Shown in pieces: positions 8,905-41,533 of a stretch of 41,574 bases of DNA. The translations under genes were made by a program, and so were the position numbers. Under the pieces are notes generated by a model that saw only the letters and a list, made by a program, of their open reading frames with translations, was not told the DNA's origin and did no database searches. How positions within the stretch are numbered: position 1 is the first letter of the stretch; each line of letters starts with the position of its first letter. Source of the DNA: Halomarina rubra (GTDB lineage: Archaea; Halobacteriota; Halobacteria; Halobacteriales; Haloarculaceae); contig NZ_JALXFV010000004.1 in the NCBI RefSeq assembly GCF_023699475.1, positions 43,256 to 84,829 on the forward strand. Direction: 5' to 3'.

Positions 8905-9624
8905 TCAGCCGTGCGGGGTGGCGTGAGTCGGTCCGTAGCGCCCGTCGACGACCACGAGGACCACGCTCGCGACCACCAGCGGGACGAGCGTCAGCAGGTA
9001 GGCCGTCAGCGTCGGGCCGGGGTGGACGGCGACCTGGAAGAACGGCAGGTTGTGGCCGGGCCCGAGCGCTATCGCGACCGCTCCGGCGGCGACCGCCAGC
9101 GCACCGCGACGACGACGGGTGAGCAGCCAGCCGACTCCAGCGCCGGCGAGCGCCGTGACGAGGAGGAACTCGACGACGAACCGGAGAGCGACCGCCGGGA
9201 CGTCGACCGCCGCCGTCCGGACGGCACCGTCGACGGTCGGCAGGTAGGGCGCGCCGACCTGGACGAGGGCCACCGTGGGAACGAGCACGAGGACCGACCC
9301 GACGCAGAGTGCGAGGGAGCGACCGAACAGACCGGCGGGAAGCCGTGGCTCGACAGTTCTGAACGCCACGTCGACGAGCGCGCCACCGAGACCGGCGACG
9401 ACGACGCCCACCGGTGCGACGAACCAGATGGGGAGTATCCACAGCGCGTGGAGGACCAGGAAGACGCCACAGCCGACGAGCCCGGCGAGAACGCCCGGCA
9501 GGTAGTTCCACGGCTCGACGTCGGGCGCGAACCGGGTCCACCACGGTCGGGCACCGGCTTCACCGTCGCCCGGCGGTCGTGCCCGTGCCGGGACGGACTC
9601 GCTCCGCTGCTGGTCGTAGTTCAT
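8905..9624 (-). CDS. Integral membrane protein of unknown function (6 helices)
   Basis: A 239-residue protein with a ~40-residue charged N-terminus (MNYDQQRSESVPAR) followed by about six hydrophobic helices, for example YLPGVLAGLVGCGVFLVLHA (~43), FVAPVGVVVAGLGGALVDVAF (~68), LALCVGSVLVLVPTVALVQ (~108) and TAYLLTLVPLVVASVVLVVV near the end. I recognise no enzymatic motif. It is divergent from the methylmalonyl-CoA mutase gene and probably transcribed alone. It is confidently a gene because of coherent membrane topology and codon use; the function is unknown. Confidence 0.75.
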   Translation of the reverse strand: MNYDQQRSESVPARARPPGDGEAGARPWWTRFAPDVEPWNYLPGVLAGLVGCGVFLVLHALWILPIWFVAPVGVVVAGLGGALVDVAFRTVEPRLPAGLFGRSLALCVGSVLVLVPTVALVQVGAPYLPTVDGAVRTAAVDVPAVALRFVVEFLLVTALAGAGVGWLLTRRRRGALAVAAGAVAIALGPGHNLPFFQVAVHPGPTLTAYLLTLVPLVVASVVLVVVDGRYGPTHATPHG

Positions 9625-19609: not shown

Positions 19610-19693
19610 TGTTACTCACGCGGACGCCGAGTCAATTATTTTCGTGCAAGAAGCAGCTGACTCAGCTGTTAGATAGAGAGCGTGGGTCAATCA
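19610..19693 (+). repeat. Palindromic intergenic element, copy 1 (diverged)
   Basis: A diverged copy of the ~110-bp element described at 37746-41533. The left arm (19610-19637) matches TGATACACACGCGGCAC with substitutions. The right arm (19668-19693) reads GTTAGATAGAGAGCGTG, then GGTCAATCA. It is 84 bp, so the middle is shorter than in other copies. The stop codon of the small membrane protein gene on the minus strand lies 25 bp to its right, the same placement as in the cassette array. Confidence 0.55.
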
Positions 19694-19717
19694 CCATCTT
19701 GACCGACACTTGGTGAC

Positions 19718-20023
19718 TCATCCGACCCAATAGGGCAAATCGAACACATACGATACACCGAGCAGGAAGAAGCCCGCCACGGTGCTGAGAAGCGCAATCC
19801 AAGCGAATGGAACGATGAGTGATTGTCTCAGAGAGTTCGCGCCAGCACTGAATTCGCCCCACCCAGCGAGAAGGGCGACTCCAACGAGAATCCCCGCACA
19901 CCCTCCAGTAACAATGGCCCCGTCTGCTATCGTAGGAGAGCCCCACAGTGAGCCGACTTGCCCGCCCGCGAGTATCACCCCAAGTAACAGCGGGACGATT
20001 CCCAGTTCCCTCCTGAGAGACAT
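19718..20023 (-). CDS. Small three-helix membrane protein, unknown
   Basis: A 101-residue protein with three hydrophobic helices: IVPLLLGVILAGGQVGSLWG (~8-27), AIVTGGCAGILVGVALLAGWG (~35-55) and IVPFAWIALLSTVAGFFLLG (~70-90). The start ATG 20023 is preceded on the minus strand by a TAT box centred ~27 bp upstream. It occupies the unit between repeat element 1 and the left arm of element 2, with lower GC than the korAB side. I do not recognise the family. It is a credible gene because of promoter, topology and placement. Confidence 0.6.
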   Translation of the reverse strand: MSLRRELGIVPLLLGVILAGGQVGSLWGSPTIADGAIVTGGCAGILVGVALLAGWGEFSAGANSLRQSLIVPFAWIALLSTVAGFFLLGVSYVFDLPYWVG

Positions 20024-20101
20024 ATGCGGAACGGTGGTTCCTCGGCCATACAGCTACTGGTTCCCAGAAGTGGTAGTGACCACTCCGGGATTGATTTCGA
20101 G

Positions 20102-20138
20102 CGATACACACGCGGCACGGGTCTATCAATACCGGCAA
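20102..20138 (+). repeat. Palindromic element, left half-copy
   Basis: The left arm of the repeat element: CGATACACACGCGGCAC followed by GGGTCTATCAATACCGGCAA. Its inner 18 bp (20121-20138) are an inverted match, with one mismatch, to 20641-20658. The two halves thus bracket about 500 bp carrying a small gene instead of the usual ~35-bp middle. Confidence 0.6.
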
Positions 20139-20367: not shown

Positions 20368-20628
20368 ATGCGTATTCGCACTGACGGTGACTACGCCCAT
20401 CGGAAGGAGGCGATCGAGCAGACCGCCCGGTTCTACGACCAGAACAAGACCGCGAGCGTGGTGAATGCCTGCGAGGACATTCCACGACTCGCGAGGGCCG
20501 TCGAGGAACTCCTGGCACGTGACGACTTCACTACCGAGCAGAAGCGAGAGATTGCCGACCTCCTCGATCTCGGCCAGAGCTTCAGTGTGACCTATTCCGA
20601 AATCACCACTGTCGGTCGGAACGAATAG
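20368..20628 (+). CDS. Small haloarchaeal protein, DUF7692-like
   Basis: An 86-residue acidic helical protein. MRIRTDGDYAHRKEAIEQTARFY at the start, a KTASVVNACEDIPRLARAVEELLA helix pair, and an EQKREIADLLDL helix resemble the small haloarchaeal proteins I associate with DUF7692, often on plasmids and accessory islands. The family name is from memory and needs a search. The start is ATG 20368; GTG 20356 would add four residues. The gene lies alone between inverted half-elements at 20102-20138 and 20641-20678, with its stop 12 bp from the right half, suggesting it moved with, or was trapped by, that element. The function is unknown. Confidence 0.65.
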   Translation: MRIRTDGDYAHRKEAIEQTARFYDQNKTASVVNACEDIPRLARAVEELLARDDFTTEQKREIADLLDLGQSFSVTYSEITTVGRNE

Positions 20629-20640
20629 GCGTCACATCGA

Positions 20641-20678
20641 TTGCCGGTATTGTTAGACAGAGAGCGTGGGTGTATCAG
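20641..20678 (+). repeat. Palindromic element, right half-copy
   Basis: The right arm: TTGCCGGTATTGTTAGAC (20641-20658), then AGAGAGCGTGGGTGTATCAG. The first 18 bp are the inverted partner of 20121-20138 (17 of 18). The outer arm matches the right ends of the array copies at 37.8-41.5 kb. It sits just after the stop codon of the small gene at 20628. Confidence 0.65.
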
Positions 20679-20801
20679 CCAGAGGGCAACGAGCAGTGGT
20701 TGGTCGGCTTCATTGTGCTCATACACAGCGCACATCCACTAGCTCCATTTCTGGCAGAAATGTTATTTCGTTGTCGGTGGATGAGTGGCTGGGCCACTGC
20801 T

Positions 20802-21182
20802 ATGGACGAAGTTTCAGTCGTTACACAAGCCAGTTTGAGAGCGCCAGACGAGGCAAGCGACGTTTCACGAGAGGAAGTGTTCGAAACCGAGGACACCATC
20901 GTGGTTCAGTCGCGGGTCTCCGGTGGAGTCACGACCGGATGGCATCACAACGGCGACAGGCACGTGTACGGCTATGTCGTGGCGGGCCACGCCATTCTGG
21001 AGTACGGACCAGGAGGTCGAGAGTCGGTCGAACTTGATGCCGGTGACTTCGTGTACGTTCCACCACACACGATTCGGCGAGTAGTGAACCCGACTGCCGC
21101 TGACTGGGTAATCGCCATCAGCTTCGTTGGCTCCGGCCCGCCTGCCGTATCCGTCGACGGCCCCGAGTCAGATACCGGATGA
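20802..21182 (+). CDS. Cupin-domain protein
   Basis: A 126-residue single-domain cupin. Motif 1 is GWHHNGDRHVYGYVVAGHAILEYGP (about residues 47-70), with metal-ligand histidines in HHN and RHVYG. Motif 2 is LDAGDFVYVPPHTIRRVVNP (~78-97), with its histidine. The sequence fits small cupins that bind a metal and a small ligand; activity cannot be deduced. The start ATG 20802 is preferred because the longer reading upstream runs into the repeat element, though ATG 20781 is also possible. It lies between element half-copies at 20641 and 21253. Confidence 0.8.
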   Translation: MDEVSVVTQASLRAPDEASDVSREEVFETEDTIVVQSRVSGGVTTGWHHNGDRHVYGYVVAGHAILEYGPGGRESVELDAGDFVYVPPHTIRRVVNPTAADWVIAISFVGSGPPAVSVDGPESDTG

Positions 21183-21567
21183 CCGAACCGACCTGTTCGA
21201 TAACCCCTCAGTGTACTGCCCGCCTATAGACGAAACACACTCAATCTGGGAGTTGATACGGTGTTAGACTCGCGGCACGTCTCTAACAACCCCGGCAGGC
21301 TGTGCGGTATGTCCGTGGGTCGTACCGCGAACGAGCACAGCGAGTGAGCGGGATGACTGAACCCTTGAGCGTAGCGAAGGGGTGAGGGAATCCTTTTGCC
21401 GCCAGAAATCTCCGTTTTCTGGCTGCTAACCGAAAGCCGCCGGCTTTCGGTGATGGTCCAGCTTTTACCCTGGGGGGGGGATTTGCCGCCCCACCCGTAG
21501 ATAAAAGGTGGCAAGGGGTGGTGCCTTCCGCAACCCCTAATCAGTGGACGCTCGTCAGAAACACTGC
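21183..21567. repeat. Intergenic region with a truncated repeat element and hairpins
   Basis: No gene is seen in these 385 bp. At 21253-21300 there is a left-arm copy of the palindromic element (GTTAGACTCGCGGCACG then TCTCTAAC) with no right arm. It is followed by a GTACCGCGAACGAGC segment shared with 23575 and 26044, a near-perfect stem around 21405-21422 (CCAGAAA/TTTCTGG), and a 23-bp palindrome at 21429-21451 with an 11-bp stem. A run of nine G occurs at about 21472-21480. These look like accumulated mobile or terminator-like repeats at the junction between the accessory patch and core genes. Confidence 0.55.
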
Positions 21568-23671: not shown

Positions 23672-24625
23672 CTACATGTAGCCGAGGTCGCGCAACCTGG
23701 CCATGAGGTTCTCCTTGTCCTGGGCGCGTCCCTGGCGCTCGGTGGTACCTTCGAGGTCCTGGAGCCACGCGGGGGCGTCGGCGGACTTCGCCGACCCTTT
23801 CTCGGTGCCCAGTGAGCGAAAACCCTCGAAGTACTTCGGGCTGACCGGGATGTCCTCGGCGGTGAACCCCTCGGGCATGTCGTCGTCGTCCTGCGGGACG
23901 TGGCCCTCCGGCCAGCCCTCGACGGTGTCGGGGACGATGAAGTGCCAGAACGCGTCCCACAGCGCCCGTTCGTCGAACTGGACGATGGAGTGGACGCGGT
24001 CGTGGGGCGGGTACTTCTCGGAGTCGTGGCGCGGGCTGAAGAACGTCTCGTCGGCGCGCGCTTCCTGTTCGTCCCAGCGGACGCCCGAGAAGATGCCGTC
24101 GAAGCCGTACTCGCTGACGACGTCGTTGAGCGCGACGGTCTTCAGCAGGTGGTTGCCGCCGAGGCTGTCGGCCTCGAAGCGGAACGTCTCGCCGTCGTGG
24201 TCCGCGCGGGCGAGTTCGTGGCGGTTGGTCTCGGTGAGCGAGTCGACCGGGACGTCGTCACCGGGCGTGTGGCTCTCGAAGACCGGGTCGTCGTTGCGCG
24301 CGACGACGAGTTCGAGGTCCCACTCCTCGGCCCAGCGGTGGACGAACTCGACCACCTCGTCGAAGTGCTGGTAGTGGTCGATGAACACGACCGGCGGCAC
24401 GTCGTAGCCGTACTCCTCGGCGACCTGGAGGACGACGTACAGCACGAGCGTCGAGTCCTTCCCACCGGTCCACATCACGGCGGGATTGCGGTACTGTTCG
24501 AGGGCGACGCGCGTGACCTCGATGGCCTTGCCGAGTTTGTCCTCGAGGGAGGGGTAGTCGGCGGCGGTCTGGTCGCGGCCCTCGTCGTAGTCGAGCGAGA
24601 GGTACTCTGGGAACTGTTCTGCCAT
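23672..24625 (-). CDS. Cysteine-free PP-loop ATPase, CysH/CysD-like (paralog A)
   Basis: A 317-residue member of the PAPS reductase/ATP sulfurylase-small-subunit superfamily (COG0175-like). The PP-loop is TGGKDS at residues 53-58, and VRWDEQEARADE near 205 is the conserved arginine/acidic block that CysD-type proteins share. YPPHDRVHSIVQFDERALWD follows. The protein has no cysteine, so it lacks the C-terminal redox cysteine that PAPS reductases need; an adenylating or nucleotide-transfer role fits better. No CysN partner is visible. The start is ATG 24625, 28 bp from a TATCTA-type box. It is a close paralog of the protein at 26195-27163 in the same orientation. Confidence 0.83.
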   Translation of the reverse strand: MAEQFPEYLSLDYDEGRDQTAADYPSLEDKLGKAIEVTRVALEQYRNPAVMWTGGKDSTLVLYVVLQVAEEYGYDVPPVVFIDHYQHFDEVVEFVHRWAEEWDLELVVARNDDPVFESHTPGDDVPVDSLTETNRHELARADHDGETFRFEADSLGGNHLLKTVALNDVVSEYGFDGIFSGVRWDEQEARADETFFSPRHDSEKYPPHDRVHSIVQFDERALWDAFWHFIVPDTVEGWPEGHVPQDDDDMPEGFTAEDIPVSPKYFEGFRSLGTEKGSAKSADAPAWLQDLEGTTERQGRAQDKENLMARLRDLGYM

Positions 24626-24760
24626 TGCCGATTGAATCACCGTTCCGACGTATCTACTTTCCGGCGCGTTTGGTAACTCGTCGCACGCACTCGTCGGTCT
24701 CCCGTCGACGCCCCGTCGCGCTCGTCACGACCTCGCGGTCTCGCTCCCCACCGAACGGGG

Positions 24761-26194: not shown

Positions 26195-27163
26195 CTACAT
26201 GTAGCCGAGGTCGCGCAGGCGCTCCATCAGGTCCTCTTTGTCTTGGGCGCGGCCTGCGCGCTCGGTGGTGCCTTCGAGGTCCTGCAGCCACGCGGGTTCC
26301 TCGGCGGACTTGTCGGTCGACACTTCACTCCCCAGCGAGCGGAAGCCGGCGAAGTACTTCGGGCTGACCGGGATGTCCTCGTGGGAGAGGTCGTTCGGCA
26401 GGTCGTCGTAGTCCTGGGGGACGTGGCCTGCGGGGTAGTCCTCGACGGTCTCCGGGACGACGAAGTTCCAGAAGGCGTCCCAGACGGCACGCTCGTCGAA
26501 CTGGAGAATCGGTTGAACGCGGTCGTGGGGCGGGTAGACGTCCGGGTCGTGACGGGGACTGAAGAACGTCTCGTCGGCGCGCGCCTCCTGTTCGTCCCAG
26601 CGGATGCCCGAGAGGATGCCGTCGACGTCGTACTCTTCGAGCGCGTTGTTGAGCGCGACGGTCTTCAGCAGGTGGTTGCCGACGTACGTGTCGAGCAGGA
26701 ACGGGAAGCTGTCCTCCTCGTACTCGAGCAGGTTACGGACGTGGTGCTGGTTCTGCTCGTTGAGGTCGTCGATGGGAATGTCGTCGCCCGGCGTGAGGCC
26801 GTTGGCGTCGACGTACTCGCCGACGTCCGTGTTCTGGGCGTAGACGACGTCGAGGTCCCACTCCTCGGCCCAGTGGTCGACGAAGTCGTGGAGCTCGTCG
26901 AAGTGCTGGTAGTGGTCGATGAAGATAGCCGGGGGCATCTCCAGGTCGAACTTCTCGGCGACCTCCTTGACGAAGTAGAGGACGAGTGTCGAGTCCTTCC
27001 CACCGGTCCACATGATGGCGGGGTTCTCGTACTCCTCCAGACCGATGCGCGTGACGTCGATCGCCTTCTCGATCTTGTCCTCGAGGTTCGGGTAGTCCTC
27101 GGGGGTCTCGCCTTCGCCGTCGGTGTAGTCGACGTCCAGATAGTCGGGGAAGTCGTCTGCCAT
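26195..27163 (-). CDS. Cysteine-free PP-loop ATPase, CysH/CysD-like (paralog B)
   Basis: A 322-residue paralog of the 23672-24625 product, alike through almost the whole length including TGGKDS (53-58), IDHYQHFDEL, SGIRWDEQEARADETFF, PVSPKYFAGFRSLG and the C-terminal RLRDLGYM. The least similar part is the central segment at about residues 110-155. It too has no cysteine. The start ATG 27163 has a TTTA box (27191-27194 complement) ~29 bp upstream. The pair arose by duplication and now flanks the zinc-finger and esterase genes. Because the catalytic core of both is intact, two substrates or conditions are likely (inference). Confidence 0.83.
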   Translation of the reverse strand: MADDFPDYLDVDYTDGEGETPEDYPNLEDKIEKAIDVTRIGLEEYENPAIMWTGGKDSTLVLYFVKEVAEKFDLEMPPAIFIDHYQHFDELHDFVDHWAEEWDLDVVYAQNTDVGEYVDANGLTPGDDIPIDDLNEQNQHHVRNLLEYEEDSFPFLLDTYVGNHLLKTVALNNALEEYDVDGILSGIRWDEQEARADETFFSPRHDPDVYPPHDRVQPILQFDERAVWDAFWNFVVPETVEDYPAGHVPQDYDDLPNDLSHEDIPVSPKYFAGFRSLGSEVSTDKSAEEPAWLQDLEGTTERAGRAQDKEDLMERLRDLGYM

Positions 27164-27325
27164 CTCGTAATTACATATTATTACTTCCCATAAACCGCTT
27201 GTGGCCTCTCCCAGCGAGCGCGACAGTTTCGCAGCCGCTGCGAGGCGTTTGCGGGGTGCTGGCACGTCGCTCGTCGAGTGAAAGACCGGTCGCTCGGAGG
27301 GTGGTGACCGAAAGGGGTCGCAGGA

Positions 27326-37324: not shown

Positions 37325-37329
37325 GTTTA
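37325..37329 (+). promoter_or_regulatory. TATA-like box of the lipoprotein gene at 37356
   Basis: GTTTA within AGTTTATGC, ~28 bp before ATG 37356, a leaderless start. It supports ATG 37356 rather than the in-frame ATG at 37329, which is part of the box. Confidence 0.45.
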
Positions 37330-37355
37330 TGCTCGAATTTAGTCGAGCGGTTGAC

Positions 37356-37745
37356 ATGCCTCCCCTTCGACTGCGCGCAAGCGTGCTCGCTGTTCTTCTC
37401 GTGCTTCTCGTGTCGATAGCAGGATGTACACTCCCGAGCACGGGAGGCAGCACCCAAACAGACACGCCCACACCACCGACCACGACGGCCTCGGCGCCGG
37501 ATGCTGTGCGAACGCACTGTCCGTACACGCTCGATACAACGCAGGTTGCTGACGACGATATTAGCCCCAGAACCACACAGTACAACTACTCGAATCTATC
37601 CGGGTCACGACAGCGGGAGGTCAAGACCGCTGTCGAGGACGGCGGGATCGTTCTCGGCCACTCAGTGCCGGACATTTGGGGCTACCACGATGTTGTCGTC
37701 TGGTATCAAGGCGAGGCATACTCCGTCGGATTCGTCGGGTGCTGA
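37356..37745 (+). CDS. Lipoprotein, unknown function
   Basis: A 129-residue protein with a signal peptide (MPPLRLRASVLAVLLVLLVS) and lipobox IAGC, whose cysteine would be lipid-modified. A Thr/Pro-rich linker (~28-50) follows, then a small domain with one further cysteine (THCPYTLD) and a C-terminal FVGC. The signal has no twin arginine in the usual form, so a Sec or Tat route is open. The stop codon is 1 bp from the first repeat element (37746-37857). No family is recognised. Confidence 0.75.
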   Translation: MPPLRLRASVLAVLLVLLVSIAGCTLPSTGGSTQTDTPTPPTTTASAPDAVRTHCPYTLDTTQVADDDISPRTTQYNYSNLSGSRQREVKTAVEDGGIVLGHSVPDIWGYHDVVVWYQGEAYSVGFVGC

Positions 37746-37857
37746 GTCGTTAGACTCGAGGCACAACTCTACCAGCTGCGTCACTCCGAATCGCTGTGAA
37801 AGAAACTACTCGCGTCGATTGCCTGGTTTGTTAGATACAGAGCGTGTCTTTCATTCG
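37746..37857 (+). repeat. Palindromic cassette element, copy at 37.7 kb
   Basis: A ~110-bp element. The left arm is GTCGTTAGACTCGAGGCAC, the middle has CTGCGTCACTCCGAATCG, and the right arm GTTAGATACAGAGCGTG. The inner ends (CTCTACC and GTTAGAT) are imperfect inverted repeats. It lies between the stop codon of the rightward lipoprotein (37745) and that of the leftward lipoprotein (37912). Confidence 0.75.
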
Positions 37858-37911
37858 GAACTCAATACTACGGCTGTATCGAAAGGGCCGCGCTGGAGAA
37901 AGGACGCGCAC

Positions 37912-38346
37912 TCAGCAAATTGAGCTGTTCACTATCTCGACGCTCCCGTCGGAGCCTACGGATACTTCAATCCATTCGCAGATTCCAAGCCCCCTCTGCC
38001 ACACCGTCTCTCCATCCATTGAAAACGTGATATCGTAGGACTGACGACCGAGTGCGTCATCGAGTGTCAATTCGTCATCGGCCTTCAGTGAGTGCGTTTG
38101 TTCGTAGACCGGTTCGCTGTTGTCGTGCTCAGTAACCAGAACAGTGAGTGTGAGGTCGTCTCTGGCTCTGATATCGAACTCGGGAGGTCCCGGAGTTGCT
38201 AACTGGGGAGTTTCTGTTGGCGATGGTGCCGACGTGGTTTGAGCCGAGTTGGTCGAAGTCGATTGAGGGTCTGCTGTCGATGCACACCCACTGAGTCCAA
38301 GGGTGAGGCCAGTTCCAACAGTGGAGAGGAGGGCACGGCGGTTCAT
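37912..38346 (-). CDS. Tat lipoprotein, unknown function (cassette gene)
   Basis: A 144-residue lipoprotein. MNRRALLSTVGTGLTLG is a Tat signal and LSGC the lipobox (C21). A Ser/Thr/Pro linker (~25-55) precedes a beta-rich domain with FDIRARDDLTLTVLVTEHD and GLGICEWIEVSVGSDG. The last residue is cysteine (NSSIC), which with ICEW may form a disulfide. It reads like a carboxypeptidase-regulatory or immunoglobulin-like domain, but this is a guess. A box reading GAAGACACTTACC on the minus strand is ~25 bp upstream and recurs before two other cassette lipoproteins. Confidence 0.72.
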   Translation of the reverse strand: MNRRALLSTVGTGLTLGLSGCASTADPQSTSTNSAQTTSAPSPTETPQLATPGPPEFDIRARDDLTLTVLVTEHDNSEPVYEQTHSLKADDELTLDDALGRQSYDITFSMDGETVWQRGLGICEWIEVSVGSDGSVEIVNSSIC

Positions 38347-38367
38347 ACCACGATTCGGTCAACAGGT

Positions 38368-38380
38368 GGTAAGTGTCTTC
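38368..38380 (-). promoter_or_regulatory. Shared promoter motif (first of three)
   Basis: GAAGACACTTACC on the minus strand, ~25 bp before the lipoprotein start at 38346. It matches GAAGGTACTTATC at 39701-39713 and GAAGATACTTACC at 41403-41415, each with the same distance to its start. Confidence 0.45.
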
Positions 38381-38387
38381 TGTGAAG

Positions 38388-38499
38388 AGTGTTCGACTCG
38401 CAGCACATGTCCAACAGCTGCGTCACGCCGAATCGGTGTCAAAACAACCACTGCTTCGCTTGCCGGTTTTGGTAGACAGAGTACGTGAGTGTACAAGCT
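38388..38499 (+). repeat. Palindromic cassette element, copy at 38.4 kb
   Basis: Same orientation as the previous copy. The left arm is GTTCGACTCGCAGCAC, the inner left box GTCCAAC, then GCTGCGTCACGCCGAATCGG. The right arm is TTGCCGGTTTTGGTAGAC then AGAGTACGTGAGTGTACA. It lies just before the start side of the lipoprotein gene and 10 bp from the stop of the gene at 38509. Confidence 0.75.
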
Positions 38500-38508
38500 G
38501 CAGCCCAC

Positions 38509-39078
38509 TCAATCGAAGCGGTCGGCTGTCAGTCCGAGTTTGAAATCAATCCGTGTATGGAAGTCGTGAGCAAGGTCCCCTCTGTCGAGGGGGAGTGAGT
38601 ATCCAGATGCCTCTACGTAGTCATACAGCGCCCAGTGCGCATAGTCGAACTCTTCTTCGAAGCTCCAGTTGCTCTGCGTCGGATACGAGAGGTGCTCGTG
38701 GTAGACCTCTGAAGCGTATTCGTAGTACGTGGTCGCCTCCGGTTCGTCGAGCATGAGTAGTCCGTCTCCATGCCACTCGTGGAGTATCGCATCGCGTACG
38801 GGGTCGTCAGTAACTGCCACGAGTTCGTCCCACATTGGTCGGACGAATTCGAACAATCGGATAGCCCGCCTGTGATTCCCGGCGCGTACGTCGGCGCTGA
38901 TGGCTTCGAGTGCGTGAGCGTAGCCGATGAACGACGAGTGCTTGGGTTCATAATCGGCGTCGATGAATCCAGCGAACGCTCTCAGAGCGTAGTATTCGGC
39001 TGCGATTTCGCTATCGCCTCTGTCATCTAATTCGGTGGCTTCTCCGTACAGGGACGGGAACAGTTCTCGCAACCCCAT
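38509..39078 (-). CDS. Unknown soluble protein (cassette gene)
   Basis: A 189-residue acidic helical protein (MGLRELFPSLYGEATELDDRG). The pattern of repeated helix pairs (ALEAISADVRAGNHRRAIRLFEFV, then ATTYYEYASEVYHEHL) looks tetratricopeptide-like or immunity-protein-like, with no catalytic residues visible. The start ATG 39078 has a TAAG-type box ~29 bp upstream on the minus strand. Its stop abuts the repeat copy to its left and its promoter abuts the copy to its right, so it fills one array unit. The function is unknown. Confidence 0.65.
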   Translation of the reverse strand: MGLRELFPSLYGEATELDDRGDSEIAAEYYALRAFAGFIDADYEPKHSSFIGYAHALEAISADVRAGNHRRAIRLFEFVRPMWDELVAVTDDPVRDAILHEWHGDGLLMLDEPEATTYYEYASEVYHEHLSYPTQSNWSFEEEFDYAHWALYDYVEASGYSLPLDRGDLAHDFHTRIDFKLGLTADRFD

Positions 39079-39121
39079 TCTTGACGACTCGATGAACCGG
39101 ATCGACTTAGCTCTCAGTCTG

Positions 39122-39233
39122 GTCGATACACACGCGGCACACGTCTACCAGCTGCGTCACGCTGAATCGGTGTGAAACAAACTGTTCGCGTCGCTGACTG
39201 GTTTTGGTAGACAGAGCGCGTGGGTGTATCAGT
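39122..39233 (+). repeat. Palindromic cassette element, copy at 39.1 kb
   Basis: The best conserved copy. The left arm is CGATACACACGCGGCAC, with inner boxes GTCTACC (39143-39149) and GGTAGAC (39206-39212) that are exact inverted repeats 70 bp end to end. The right arm ends in GTGGGTGTATCAG, and the outer ends (GATACAC and GTGTATC) are also inverted. Confidence 0.8.
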
Positions 39234-39257
39234 TTGTCAGTCTCGATCCAACAGCGG

Positions 39258-39677
39258 TCAACAGCACGGGTCCACGTCACTCTCCGATAGAGGTGCCGTG
39301 CCGCTACCGTAGACCTCATCGGCCATTCGGACCCCGAGGGCATAGTGATTGGTTTTATACTCGAGATACGTTTCTTCTCCCTTCATCCGGTTGGAAAAGG
39401 ATTCCATGGCGCTTGCCTGTTCATCATTGTCGTCCAAGCATGCCCGAACGACGCCGTCGTCAACTCCCGTCTGAAGAATCGACTGCTCAGAGTCAGACAA
39501 CTCGGAGAATCGGATAATCGTTGCTTGTTCAGGTACCGTATCGGTACGCTTGACCGTAATTTCTCCGTCGTGTGGCATTGAGGTGCCGAAGAACCCCTGA
39601 CTACAACTACCCGAACAGCCAGCGAGCATCGACGCAGGGGCGAGACCGAGGGAGGCGAGGAGGGACCGACGGTTCAT
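39258..39677 (-). CDS. Tat lipoprotein, unknown function (cassette gene)
   Basis: A 139-residue lipoprotein. MNRRSLLASLGLAPASMLAGC carries RR and the lipobox LAGC. The mature protein has cysteines early (GSCSQGFFG), in the middle (ACLDDNDEQAS), and as the last two residues (DPCC). ITVKRTDTVPEQATIIRFSELSDSEQSILQ suggests a small alpha/beta domain. The start ATG 39677 is ~28 bp from the motif GAAGGTACTTATC. It fills the unit between the copies at 39.1 and 39.7 kb. The family is unknown. Confidence 0.72.
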   Translation of the reverse strand: MNRRSLLASLGLAPASMLAGCSGSCSQGFFGTSMPHDGEITVKRTDTVPEQATIIRFSELSDSEQSILQTGVDDGVVRACLDDNDEQASAMESFSNRMKGEETYLEYKTNHYALGVRMADEVYGSGTAPLSESDVDPCC

Positions 39678-39700
39678 ATGTGCGAATTCAATGACGATTC

Positions 39701-39713
39701 GATAAGTACCTTC
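39701..39713 (-). promoter_or_regulatory. Shared promoter motif (second of three)
   Basis: GAAGGTACTTATC on the minus strand, ~28 bp before ATG 39677; see 38368-38380. Confidence 0.45.
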
Positions 39714-39732
39714 TGTAAAAAGGAAAAAGAGT

Positions 39733-39841
39733 GTGATAGACTCGCGGCACGTGTCTCTCAGTTGTATCAATCCGAACTGGTCTGGAATCAGCGCTGTTCG
39801 GTGTTCACCGGAATTGATAGACAGAGAGCGTCTGTGTACCG
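39733..39841 (+). repeat. Palindromic cassette element, copy at 39.7 kb
   Basis: The left arm is TGATAGACTCGCGGCACG then GTCTCTCAG. The right arm is GAATTGATAGACAGAGAGCG then TCTGTGTACC. It is more diverged in its middle than the 39.1-kb copy. To its right lies a tnpB remnant rather than a cassette gene. Confidence 0.72.
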
Positions 39842-39845
39842 TGAG

Positions 39846-40083
39846 TCAGCGGCTCACGAGTGAACTCGTGGGCTTGTCAGTGGACAGCCAATCTCCCGAC
39901 GAGAACTCCCCGTCAGGTGTAAGCGTCCCTGACTTCAGAGCCAGCTGACTCGTGGCTCGACCAGCCGAACGCGTTCGGCTCGACTGGCCATAGTCGTGCT
40001 CCGCGAACCACTGGAACGCGACGTTCCGCGCCGCGTTATGACCCCTCTGGATAGCTTCGCGTAGCCAACGCCGAGCGGTGAGC
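39846..40083 (-). pseudogene. Remnant of IS200/IS605 tnpB, C-terminal end with end hairpin
   Basis: On the minus strand a frame reads GHNAARNVAFQWFAEHDYG, then a tail with GTLTPDGEFSSGDW. The xHNAARN block resembles the final DRDxNAAxN (RuvC-III) motif of TnpB, but the catalytic D is replaced. An in-frame stop lies just upstream near 40083, so only the last ~75 codons remain. The hairpin GCTCACGAG/CTCGTGGGC (39852-39873), typical of IS200/IS605 right ends, overlaps its end. No TnpA is present. The element is dead but marks past transposon activity in the array. Confidence 0.5.
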
Positions 40084-40102
40084 TACTCTGGGCAACTCTC
40101 AT

Positions 40103-40120
40103 GTATACTGTGGCGTATAC
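40103..40120 (+). promoter_or_regulatory. VapBC promoter/operator
   Basis: Two GTATAC hexamers, each self-complementary, separated by TGTGGC. The first overlaps the TATA-box position (~23 bp before ATG 40129). The symmetric arrangement is what an autoregulating VapB dimer would bind. This is an inference from context. Confidence 0.45.
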
Positions 40121-40128
40121 GGACTTGC

Positions 40129-40338
40129 ATGAGCAAGAGCATTCGTGTTGATGATGAGACTCACTCGGCGCTCGCAGCACTGAAAGGTGACGACGAAACC
40201 TTCAACGATCTGCTCGCTCGCCTCCTTGAGGAGCGACGTAAGTCCGTCCGCGAAGGCGCGGGCCTCTGGGAAGGGACCGACGCCGCGGAGAAAGCTCGCG
40301 ATGCCCGAAAAGAGATGAAACGGAGCGTCGGGAAGTGA
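40129..40338 (+). CDS. vapB: VapB-type antitoxin
   Basis: A 69-residue antitoxin. MSKSIRVDDETHSALAAL is the DNA-binding N-terminal part, and a helical, charged C-terminus (FNDLLARLLEERRKSVREGAGLW, then KARDARKEMKRSVGK) would wrap around the toxin. The start ATG 40129 is chosen by the promoter; the longer upstream frame is not protein-like. The stop overlaps the toxin start by 4 bp (GTGA), a standard coupled toxin-antitoxin layout. It neutralises VapC and probably represses the pair through the GTATAC sites. Confidence 0.85.
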   Translation: MSKSIRVDDETHSALAALKGDDETFNDLLARLLEERRKSVREGAGLWEGTDAAEKARDARKEMKRSVGK

Positions 40339-40727
40339 CGCTATACGACAGTAGCGTTCTCATCGATTACCTCGATGGTGATGATACCGCCGTTGAGTAC
40401 ATCGACGCACACCTCGACGAGCGAGCTGTTACGACGCCGCTAGTGATGTTCGAAGTGTACCAGGGGGAGGTGTTCAAGTCGGGCCCCCCGGATTTCGACG
40501 CCGTAGAGAATGCATTGGAGTGGGTTGACGTCATTGAGGAGACCGGCGACCTTGCCCGTGTGGCCGCTGAACTTCAGTCGAATCTCCAGCGCCGAGGCCA
40601 GACGCTCGCCGCTCGTGACGCGTTCATCGCAGGGACAGCGCACGGATTCGGTGAATCGCTCGCAGTCGCGGATTCGGACTTTGACGTCGATGGAATCACT
40701 GACGAAATCGACGTGGACTTTCTCTGA
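40335..40727 (+). CDS. vapC: VapC PIN-domain toxin (ribonuclease)
   Basis: A 130-residue PIN-domain protein. The acidic metal site is D5 (YDSSVLIDYL), E40 (MFEVYQGE), D95 (AARDAFIAG) and D113 (VADSDFD), all present, so it should be an active endoribonuclease. It begins with GTG 40335 overlapping vapB. Its stop is a few bases from the repeat copy at 40731. It is the one rightward unit in the array, where all other array genes point left. It may stabilise the array against loss, as TA pairs do in other cassette arrays (inference). Confidence 0.9.
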   Translation: MTLYDSSVLIDYLDGDDTAVEYIDAHLDERAVTTPLVMFEVYQGEVFKSGPPDFDAVENALEWVDVIEETGDLARVAAELQSNLQRRGQTLAARDAFIAGTAHGFGESLAVADSDFDVDGITDEIDVDFL

Positions 40728-40730
40728 ACA

Positions 40731-40838
40731 GCATCCGACTCGGTGTACGGCGAACCCGCTGAGCCAAGTCGAATCGGCGTCGAAGAATCTGGAGCGTTGC
40801 TTGCCGTGTTTGTTAGACAGAGAGCGTGAGTCTATCGG
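40731..40838 (+). repeat. Palindromic cassette element, copy at 40.7 kb
   Basis: The left arm is diverged (CCGACTCGGTGTACGG). The middle still has GAGCCAAGTCGAATCGGCG, and the right arm is well conserved: TTGCCGTGTTTGTTAGAC then AGAGAGCGTGAGTCTATC. It separates the convergent vapC and lipoprotein stop codons. Confidence 0.7.
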
Positions 40839-40841
40839 GTC

Positions 40842-41381
40842 TTACGCGTCGTTGACGCGTCCGTCCCAACTGTAGCTGTTCACTGTCGTCTCGTTTGGCG
40901 CCCGCTCCAACGGTGATGTCGTATCTACGCGGAGAAACCCGACTGAGTGGTCCTCGTCGACGGCTTTCATGTACGGGTCAACGGTGGCTGTCCCCCCGAT
41001 TGAAAGAGTGTTGAAGACGGACCGGGACACATGTCCGTTCGCCGGTTCGGATCCATCCTCTGGAACGATGTTCGTGTCGTAGTGAACGTACGAGTATTGA
41101 CCGCTCACCCGTTCGTGTATCTGTTCGGAAACAGCCATCGAGTGGCCTTGGAAGATTCCAGAGAGGATGTCTGGGTACTCTCCCGTCACCAACCGTTCTT
41201 CTGGTTCGTATGTGAGTACAGCGGCCACGACGTCAGAAACAGTTCCATCGTCGGTCGGTACGCCGATGGTGAGGGTCTTGGTCGCGACCGTCCCAGAGGT
41301 GGTTTGACCACTCGAACAACCAGCTAAGCCAGCAACGCTCGCGGCCCCAATCAGACCAAGAACCTCTCGTCTGGACGGCAC
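40842..41381 (-). CDS. Tat lipoprotein, unknown function (cassette gene)
   Basis: A 179-residue lipoprotein. MPSRREVLGLIGAASVAGLAGC holds RR and the lipobox (LAGC). The mature part has TLTIGVPTDDGTVSDVVAAVLTYEP and SGIFQGHSMAVSEQIHERVSG. No family is recognised. The start GTG 41381 is preferred over ATG 41390, because the motif GAAGATACTTACC (41403-41415) lies ~26 bp upstream of the GTG and the N-terminus then has a normal Tat form. Its stop is 4 bp from the repeat copy at 40.7 kb and its promoter is close to the copy at 41.4 kb. Confidence 0.72.
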   Translation of the reverse strand: MPSRREVLGLIGAASVAGLAGCSSGQTTSGTVATKTLTIGVPTDDGTVSDVVAAVLTYEPEERLVTGEYPDILSGIFQGHSMAVSEQIHERVSGQYSYVHYDTNIVPEDGSEPANGHVSRSVFNTLSIGGTATVDPYMKAVDEDHSVGFLRVDTTSPLERAPNETTVNSYSWDGRVNDA

Positions 41382-41402
41382 AATTTCCATGATGACCACT
41401 GA

Positions 41403-41415
41403 GGTAAGTATCTTC
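41403..41415 (-). promoter_or_regulatory. Shared promoter motif (third of three)
   Basis: GAAGATACTTACC on the minus strand, ~26 bp before GTG 41381; see 38368-38380. Confidence 0.45.
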
Positions 41416-41421
41416 AGGTGA

Positions 41422-41533
41422 TTGATACACACGCGGCACGGGTCTACCAGCCGAGTCACCACGAACTGACGTGAAAACAACCCCCGTTCATTGCTTGCCG
41501 GTTTTGGTAGATAGAGAGCGTGAGTCTATCAGC
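41422..41533 (+). repeat. Palindromic cassette element, copy at 41.4 kb
   Basis: The left arm is TGATACACACGCGGCACG. The inner boxes are GTCTACC (41442-41448) and GGTAGAT (41506-41512), 71 bp end to end, and the right arm is AGAGAGCGTGAGTCTATCAG. It is about as well conserved as the 39.1-kb copy. It is the last copy inside the window, and the array probably continues beyond the right edge. Confidence 0.8.

Follow-up and report, generated by a model that had tools for sequence, protein, structure and literature searches.

Paired palindromic cores as junctions between mobile gene cassettes in a probable haloarchaeal capture system with its own tyrosine recombinase

Repeated sites in the window, here the whole analysed stretch of 41,574 nucleotides from a Halomarina genome, most probably connect mobile gene cassettes that belong to a cassette-capture system of haloarchaea, one with a dedicated tyrosine recombinase, a reading to which we assign a probability of about 0.84. 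The system is best read as a gene-capture platform that follows an integron-like logic with an independent enzyme and an independent site. It is likely a separate class of such platforms, one that arose from a virus-type tyrosine recombinase, independently of the IntI integrons, and that occurs in most genera, with at least two matched enzyme-site types and with superintegron-sized arrays. A literature search found no cassette platform described for haloarchaea.

In the Halomarina site of ~105 bp, an L and an R core, each a 25-bp palindrome, point towards one another, and the spacer between them has a fixed length (54-57 or 13 bp in most sites). Each core contains two recombinase arms of ~9 bp flanking a 7-bp centre, and the centres of the L and R cores differ. 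The window contains single-gene cassettes connected by these sites (Table 1), which were scored with an HMM made solely from copies outside the window. The window sites reach 93.6 to 50.8 bits (E values of 3e-28 to 6e-15), whereas the whole window, dinucleotide-shuffled 20 times, gave at most 8.7 bits. Copies of the element occur genome-wide, with at least 66 matches in the window's genome, which the initial annotation did not register. The coordinates and scores show that the boxes described in the initial annotation are real: the minus-strand inner boxes ATCTAAC, GTTGGAC, GGTAGAC and GTCTAAC occur as claimed there, every element in the window comes after a gene stop, and the estimate of ~70 bp from box to box follows from an outer-to-outer spacing of 54-57 bp in the window's genome. 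What that description did not recognize is that each site arm is a palindrome by itself, with the form box-N11-box. A second core type, with a 93-bp site and a spacer of 39 bp in 71 of 77 sites, is found beside integrase relatives of other genera. This type came to light when the surroundings of distant integrases were searched for palindromes in general; most of the other output was GC-rich coding noise. A search of viral contigs for the core pattern gave no matches.

Table 1. Recombination sites and cassettes in the window (E values from the outside-window model).
Feature	Position	Strand	Cores or genes	Remarks
Site 1	37749-37854	+	L core 37749-37773, R core 37830-37854	X-Y spacer 56 bp; E 1e-23
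Site 2	38391-38495	+	L core 38391-38415, R core 38471-38495	E 1.2e-23
Site 3	39125-39230	+	L core 39125-39149, R core 39206-39230	E 1.2e-27
Site 4	39735-39840	+	L core 39735-39759, R core 39816-39840	E 2.2e-21
Site 5	~40754-40836	+	L core (left arm) decayed, R core 40812-40836 intact	E 5.8e-15, partial
Site 6	41424-41530	+	L core 41424-41448, R core 41506-41530	E 2.9e-28; 44 bp before contig end
First cassette of array	37329-37773		lipoprotein-like ORF 37329-37745 (+)	closes at site 1 L core; other core not found
Cassette 1	37830-38415		one lipoprotein-like ORF 37912-38346 (-)	R core to L core; no Pfam match
Cassette 2	38471-39149		ORF 38509-39078 (-)	function unknown
Cassette 3	39206-39759		lipoprotein-like ORF 39258-39677 (-)	
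Cassette 4	39816-40755		VapB antitoxin 40129-40338 (+), PIN-domain toxin 40335-40727 (+)	left arm of closing site decayed
Cassette 5	40812-41448		lipoprotein-like ORF (-)	start near 41388, stop 40842
Single cassette	19668-20127		R core 19668-19692, L core 20103-20127, ORF 19718-20023 (-)	
Single cassette	20613-21287		Y + R core 20613-20676, L core 21263-21287, cupin ORF 20670-21182 (+)	

The same unit is found across genomes. Every delimited Halomarina cassette (113 of 113) has an L end and an R end, as do 87 of 93 second-type cassettes, with like ends in 6 of 93. About one ORF per cassette is present in 84 of 102 Halomarina and 58 of 78 second-type cassettes. The genes run in either direction, and the contents vary between cassettes, with toxin-antitoxin genes among the cargo; cassette 4 of the window shows domain matches to VAPB_antitox (9e-13) and PIN (6e-10). 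One array holds more than 25 sites within 37 kb. The X and Y flanks of the single cassette at 19668-20127 are swapped, as though the cassette were inverted.

The enzyme associated with the cores is a small tyrosine recombinase with R, K, HxxR, W and Y invariant in the family. Its gene, missed in the initial annotation, lies on other contigs of the window's genome. In H. oriensis and genome G000 the Halomarina integrase is flanked on either side by L cores at 41-47 bp, and the integrase of G007 has an L core 41-47 bp away on the 3' side. In the integrase tree, a 20-row clade carries a type-2 core 40-134 bp away in all rows except G045, the Halomarina/G284 clade is paired with type-1 cores, and the distance from the integrase 3' end to the core is 40-45 bp in most linked copies. 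Among relatives outside both core-bearing clades, no cores are found near seven haloarchaeal and two viral genes. No type-1 core lies alongside the 57% identical integrase of G047, and a search of the PhiCh1 and HCTV-5 integrase regions for cores of both types found none. The linkage of enzyme and core in Halomarina and the 20-row clade overturns a scenario raised initially, that no recombinase would be associated with the repeats in any genome. The models tested do not identify this dedicated tyrosine recombinase as IntI: an NCBIfam scan at E<=10 gave no match to integron-integrase models above cut-off and returned only XerA/XerC/XerD-type models, at 26.8 bits against a cut-off of 220 bits. 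The recombinase matches the virus-type integrase PHROG_216 (1e-18). The integrase copy of the window's genome has a stop codon at an invariant Trp; a second copy, 63% identical, looks intact, but the only core next to it is weak and lies at a contig end. Many of the arrays lack a neighbouring integrase, and in G006, where arrays are present, the integrase search gave no match. The sequence association of enzyme and sites suggests that this enzyme catalyses cassette movement.

Identical cassettes are found in unrelated locations, and their identity ends at the cores. A 250-bp cassette shows 99.2% identity between G000 and H. oriensis, with both mismatches within one outer arm and with flanks that are unrelated beyond X and Y. 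G000 has three copies of a 361-bp cassette, which between them take both orientations with respect to X/Y, and a 424-bp cassette shows 95.9% identity between two Haloprofundus genomes, at different locations. Whole arrays are replaced at one locus as well: two Haloprofundus plasmids have a backbone that is 84-86% shared and ends at the terminal cores, between which zero cassettes are common to both.

Each cassette thus defined comprises about one gene between an L and an R core, both palindromic and facing inward, and the recombinase gene lies beside a core at the head of arrays. In the proposed mechanism, which includes a putative circular intermediate, the recombinase would act on duplex DNA, joining like cores, L with L or R with R, in their centre. 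A direct exchange of L with L or R with R in adjacent cassettes would yield a circle of one cassette and one composite site, and by the reverse exchange the circle would be inserted at any matching core. The putative attI equivalent, a core situated 40-45 bp from the stop of the integrase gene, would be among such targets and may be the preferred point of cassette entry. An inverted exchange would flip the cassette.

A DNA-inversion switch similar to a shufflon, in which the enzyme chiefly flips cassettes for expression variation and cassettes spread only via ordinary homologous recombination, is unlikely. PhiCh1 Int1, 42% identical, lies within an annotated tail-fibre inversion segment, the cores are inverted in each cassette, and the 361-bp G000 cassette occurs in both orientations. 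However, the L-R order is constant along the arrays from cassette to cassette, so that like cores form direct repeats, and the unlike centres of L and R should disfavour inversion. Such a switch also fits poorly with the replacement of whole arrays, in which the breaks fall at the cores and no cassette is shared, and with the unrelated flanks around shared cassettes. Inverted cassettes occur, yet exchange and replacement leave the clearer footprints.

It is still less probable that the cassettes are passive modules like the dif modules of Acinetobacter, driven by the host Xer enzymes, with the integrase as a mere neighbour. The match between integrase clades and core types, the near-constant distance between core and integrase 3' end (40-45 bp) and the lack of cores at integrase relatives outside the core-bearing clades all argue against this, as does the separation of neighbours by two cores and a fixed spacer, where dif modules share one site. 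Inverted palindromic duplex-type cores flanking every gene, toxin-antitoxin genes within cassettes and the arrays that lack an integrase would fit passive modules. Least credible is a transposon or MITE origin, with terminal inverted repeats around single genes carried by chance, an idea that draws on single cassettes with matched inverted ends standing alone in unrelated locations. At three insertions of one cassette, no target-site duplication is seen by eye; the units are arrayed head to tail with near-constant spacers of 39, 13 or 54-57 bp, their contents change between cassettes, and the enzyme linked to them belongs to the tyrosine recombinases.

The preferred reading, a cassette-capture system, has a wide range within the class. 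The 93-bp site model of the second type finds matches in 241 of 292 Halobacteria genomes and 66 of 77 genera, and in none of the 69 genomes from the rest of the phylum. Haloarchaea exchange genes heavily, and the cassette system may be one of their main routes of gene swapping. If true, it would account for many small orphan genes and for 'site-specific integrase' annotations on haloarchaeal plasmids. An integron-like system built independently a second time would also separate the essential features of an integron, a dedicated recombinase, cassettes with sites and a site by the recombinase, from dispensable ones, namely IntI and folded single-strand sites. The system is directly testable in tractable hosts.

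Folding and covariation tests, proposed with the initial suggestion of attC sites, speak against membership. Pairing between the L and R arms was equally high in 343 of 500 and 103 of 500 column shuffles, showing no covariation beyond column make-up; RNAalifold shows no stem of the R''-R' or L''-L' type; single-strand fold z-scores range from -2.9 to +0.8, most of them unremarkable; and an Rfam search of the sites returned nothing relevant above threshold. Since pairing between the cores lacks covariation, duplex recognition is favoured over attC-like folding. The sites are therefore rejected as integron attC sites by folds, covariation and Rfam, and the system as an IntI integron by a recombinase below the integron-integrase cut-off and by its duplex-type palindromic cores.

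Among known systems, the haloviral integrases of PhiCh1 (Int1), HCTV-5 and ChaoS9 belong to the same enzyme family, with 42-50% identity and identical catalytic residues; PhiCh1 Int1 stands at 42%. In contrast to the haloarchaeal integrases, the viral ones stand in no cassette array, those of PhiCh1 and HCTV-5 have no type-1 or type-2 core near the gene, and the PhiCh1 gene lies inside the invertible segment mentioned above. The dif (pdif) modules of Acinetobacter likewise carry genes between tyrosine-recombinase sites of the duplex type, which are inversely oriented and have a short central spacer, and the modules shuffle. They have one 28-bp site common to neighbours, alternate between C and D modules and use the host XerC/XerD (PMC13141974). 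Haloarchaeal neighbours, parted by an L and an R core with a fixed spacer rather than a single shared XerC/XerD site, show a uniform L-R polarity and a linked dedicated integrase, and do not belong to this group.

Reports of archaeal integrons are confined to metagenome genomes carrying IntI or attC and leave Halobacteria unmentioned (Ghaly et al. 2022, PMC9668308). Like IntI integrons, the haloarchaeal system has arrayed gene cassettes each with a recombination site, same-direction arrays of one-gene cassettes with a recombinase gene and adjoining site at the head, other arrays without integrase, cargo of toxin-antitoxin genes and genes of unknown function, and GTTRRRY-like boxes. Unlike them, it has a recombinase that the models tested do not class as IntI, sites of two conserved palindromic cores with a fixed spacer where attC is variable and folded, no pairing covariation, cassette genes that face both ways, and an integrase that can be flanked on either side by a core with a cassette. 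The integron analogy drawn initially stands for the organisation, with one-gene cassettes, arrays and a dedicated recombinase, and falls for membership by enzyme, sites and covariation; 'convergent', which the initial annotation had allowed for, is the better word.

A haloarchaeal cassette-capture system is the best explanation, with a probability of about 0.84, for the units, borders, exchange footprints, enzyme-site link, and range observed here. Its sites consist of two cores, L and R, with their outer sides facing across a spacer, and its cassettes are the units, mostly of one gene, between an inward-facing R core and L core. When a model of the Halomarina (type 1) site is trained on copies that lie elsewhere than in the window, it detects six sites within 37749-41530 (E 3e-28 to 6e-15), one of them with a decayed left arm, and half sites at 19.6-21.3 kb; shuffling the whole window 20 times with dinucleotides preserved gives a best score of 8.7 bits. 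The window elements are genuine and score far above chance level. On rechecking, the initial annotation was right about both the box sequences and the box-to-box distance of ~70 bp.

Each arm of the type-1 site is a 25-bp palindrome in its own right, the L core reading GtTAGACncGTGCCGCGaGTgTAtC from outer to inner and the R core GnTAGACagAGAGCGTGgGTCTAtC, and every Halomarina site counted contains one of each. The spacer measures 54 to 57 bp in H. rubra and mostly 56 to 57 bp in H. oriensis. Most sites of the genome G007 have a spacer of 13 bp (or 0), and some cores there abut (C2:603928-603953 and 605159-605184); across both site types, the lengths are 0, 13, 39, and 54 to 57 bp. The long spacer divides into a 33-bp half, X, and a half of about 17 bp, Y; both are conserved and are also found singly at array ends. 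Several H. rubra contigs end in or beside recombination sites (C11, which carries the window, at its end, 84829; C13 at its start and end; C9 at its start; C16 at its end), probably through repeats interrupting assembly, and C11 and C13 may be neighbors.

Halomarina cassettes have a median length of 609 bp and are bounded by inward-facing cores, with L at one end and R at the other in 113/113. A single ORF is present in 84 of 102, and a lipobox-like leader opens 33 of the 88 main ORFs. Other cargo in the window includes VapBC and a cupin, the majority of cargo being of unknown function. Genes face both ways in cassettes of both types; therefore, one common promoter could not serve all cassettes. 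Similar lipoprotein genes (MKRRALL...GCS...QPGCSxY) in a type-2 cassette (G098:C1:85295-86059) and a type-1 cassette (G007:C4:93937-94616) hint at gene flow between the two systems. Two similar minus-strand genes at 23672-24640 and 26195-27265 of the window (322 and 356 amino acids; DNA segments about 80% identical) are apparently a duplicated pair with no connection to the cassettes.

Identical cassettes occur in unrelated surroundings. A 250-bp cassette of H. rubra (C14:309561-309810) shows 99.2% identity with an H. oriensis cassette over exactly the cassette length, with unrelated flanks past the X and Y ends and its sole two mismatches in an outer core arm. A 361-bp cassette is present in three H. 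rubra copies with unrelated outer flanks; with respect to X and Y, both orientations occur among them. A 393-bp cassette is common to the genomes G001 and G007. Across the compared cassettes, mismatches are concentrated in the outer arms and not the centers, which points to exchange within the central 7 bp and would fit a tyrosine recombinase acting on duplex DNA.

H. rubra contains PF00589 proteins, and one tyrosine recombinase family in Halomarina is flanked by two inverted L cores, 41 to 47 bp from the gene except that the 5' core in G007 is 79 bp away. In G007, the integrase heads an array of about 9 kb with an X core at one end and a Y core at the other. Decayed copies are also seen. Given the in-frame TGA in its C14 copy, H. 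rubra may rely on its C16 integrase, or the system may be inactive there. R91, K158, H217-x-x-R220, W243, and Y252 (H. oriensis numbering) are conserved without exception throughout the family, PhiCh1 Int1 included. No NCBIfam integron integrase model scores above the cutoff, XerA/C/D matches are weak, the best PDB matches are weak and of the Xer or Int type, and the best virus family is PHROG_216. Among 59 genomes, the type-1 model is positive in Halomarina only. The genome G284, from another family, carries a 75% identical integrase in the same architecture with a variant core; X copies at both outer ends of this element form terminal inverted repeats.

Integrase genes and a neighboring core in Halomarina and G284
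Feature	Location	Size	Remarks
Integrase, H. oriensis	C2:5006-5821	271 aa	between inverted L cores
Integrase, G007	C1:1975798-1976655	285 aa	array head
Integrase, H. rubra C14	L040:8704-9519		closest H. rubra copy to H. oriensis protein; one in-frame TGA replacing invariant Trp
Integrase, H. rubra C16	L162:7757-8512		intact, 63% identical copy
Weak L core (14 bits), H. rubra C16	L162:8565-8589		after the 63% identical integrase, right at contig end
Integrase, G284:C10	L158:12346-13086		core CTAGAGAC...

Integrase relatives, most about 45 to 50% identical, occur in 41/77 haloarchaeal genera, with plasmid carriers including Natrinema salinisoli, Haloprofundus halobius, and Haloarcula marina. A second core type around 18 of them gives 85 matches, compared to none in shuffled sequence. 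Its R core is TGCTGAATA-N9-TATTCAGCA, an L partner also exists, and the outer-to-outer distance is 39 bp in 71/77 sites; 87 of 93 type-2 cassettes pair an L end with an R end, and the genome G098 carries >25 sites across 37 kb. The 93-bp site model, with rough E-values and scoring limited to 14 candidates in any genome, matches in 241/292 Halobacteria genomes (66/77 genera) and in 0/69 non-halobacterial genomes of the same phylum.

In a tree of 33 integrases, enzyme clade and core type go together: type-2 cores lie 40 to 134 bp from the gene in 19 of the 20 members of one clade (support 100/99), and type-1 cores accompany the genes of the Halomarina/G284 clade (100/100). Seven haloarchaeal relatives outside both clades have no core within 350 bp, nor does the whole region retrieved around PhiCh1 Int1 and the HCTV-5 integrase. 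The 3'-side core lies 40 to 45 bp from the gene in most linked copies and is R in one type-2 subclade and L in the other, tracking the tree. This linkage overturns the possibility, raised in the initial annotation against its own reading, that no recombinase accompanies the repeats in any genome. The integrase would catalyze cassette movement, presumably through circular cassette intermediates, with entry expected preferably beside the integrase.

A natural experiment is provided by two Haloprofundus plasmids, NZ_CP083668.1 of H. halobius and NZ_MN918442.1 of Haloprofundus sp. MHR1, with backbones 84 to 86% identical. Identity extends almost to the inner edge of the first L core (L204:1687-1713), stopping among its final bases at L204:1711, and restarts at L204:9445, within the last R core (9436-9462). 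These terminal cores enclose 7.7 kb versus 4.5 kb of cassettes with none in common, the match being limited to the sites themselves. A second array starts at the same core in both plasmids (L204:14487-14513), and two further cassettes are common to Haloprofundus genomes at different locations, with breaks at cores.

The repeat ends at 37746-41533 had been likened to integron attC simple sites. This identity is rejected for both types since L-arm/R-arm pairing, which an attC hairpin would require, is no better than in shuffled columns; the apparent complementarity arises because the boxes are common to both arms. Folding energies give z from -2.9 to +0.8, and Rfam yields nothing relevant. Archaeal integrons have been described from IntI and attC in metagenome genomes, in a text from which both "Halobacteria" and "haloarchaea" are absent (PMC9668308), and the word "cassette" is absent from a review of archaeal tyrosine recombinases. 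The open literature yielded no description of haloarchaeal cassette arrays; subscription journals were not covered, and a prior description is possible. Dif modules are described elsewhere (PMC13141974). The haloarchaeal system is integron-like in its logic, with an independent enzyme and an independent site.
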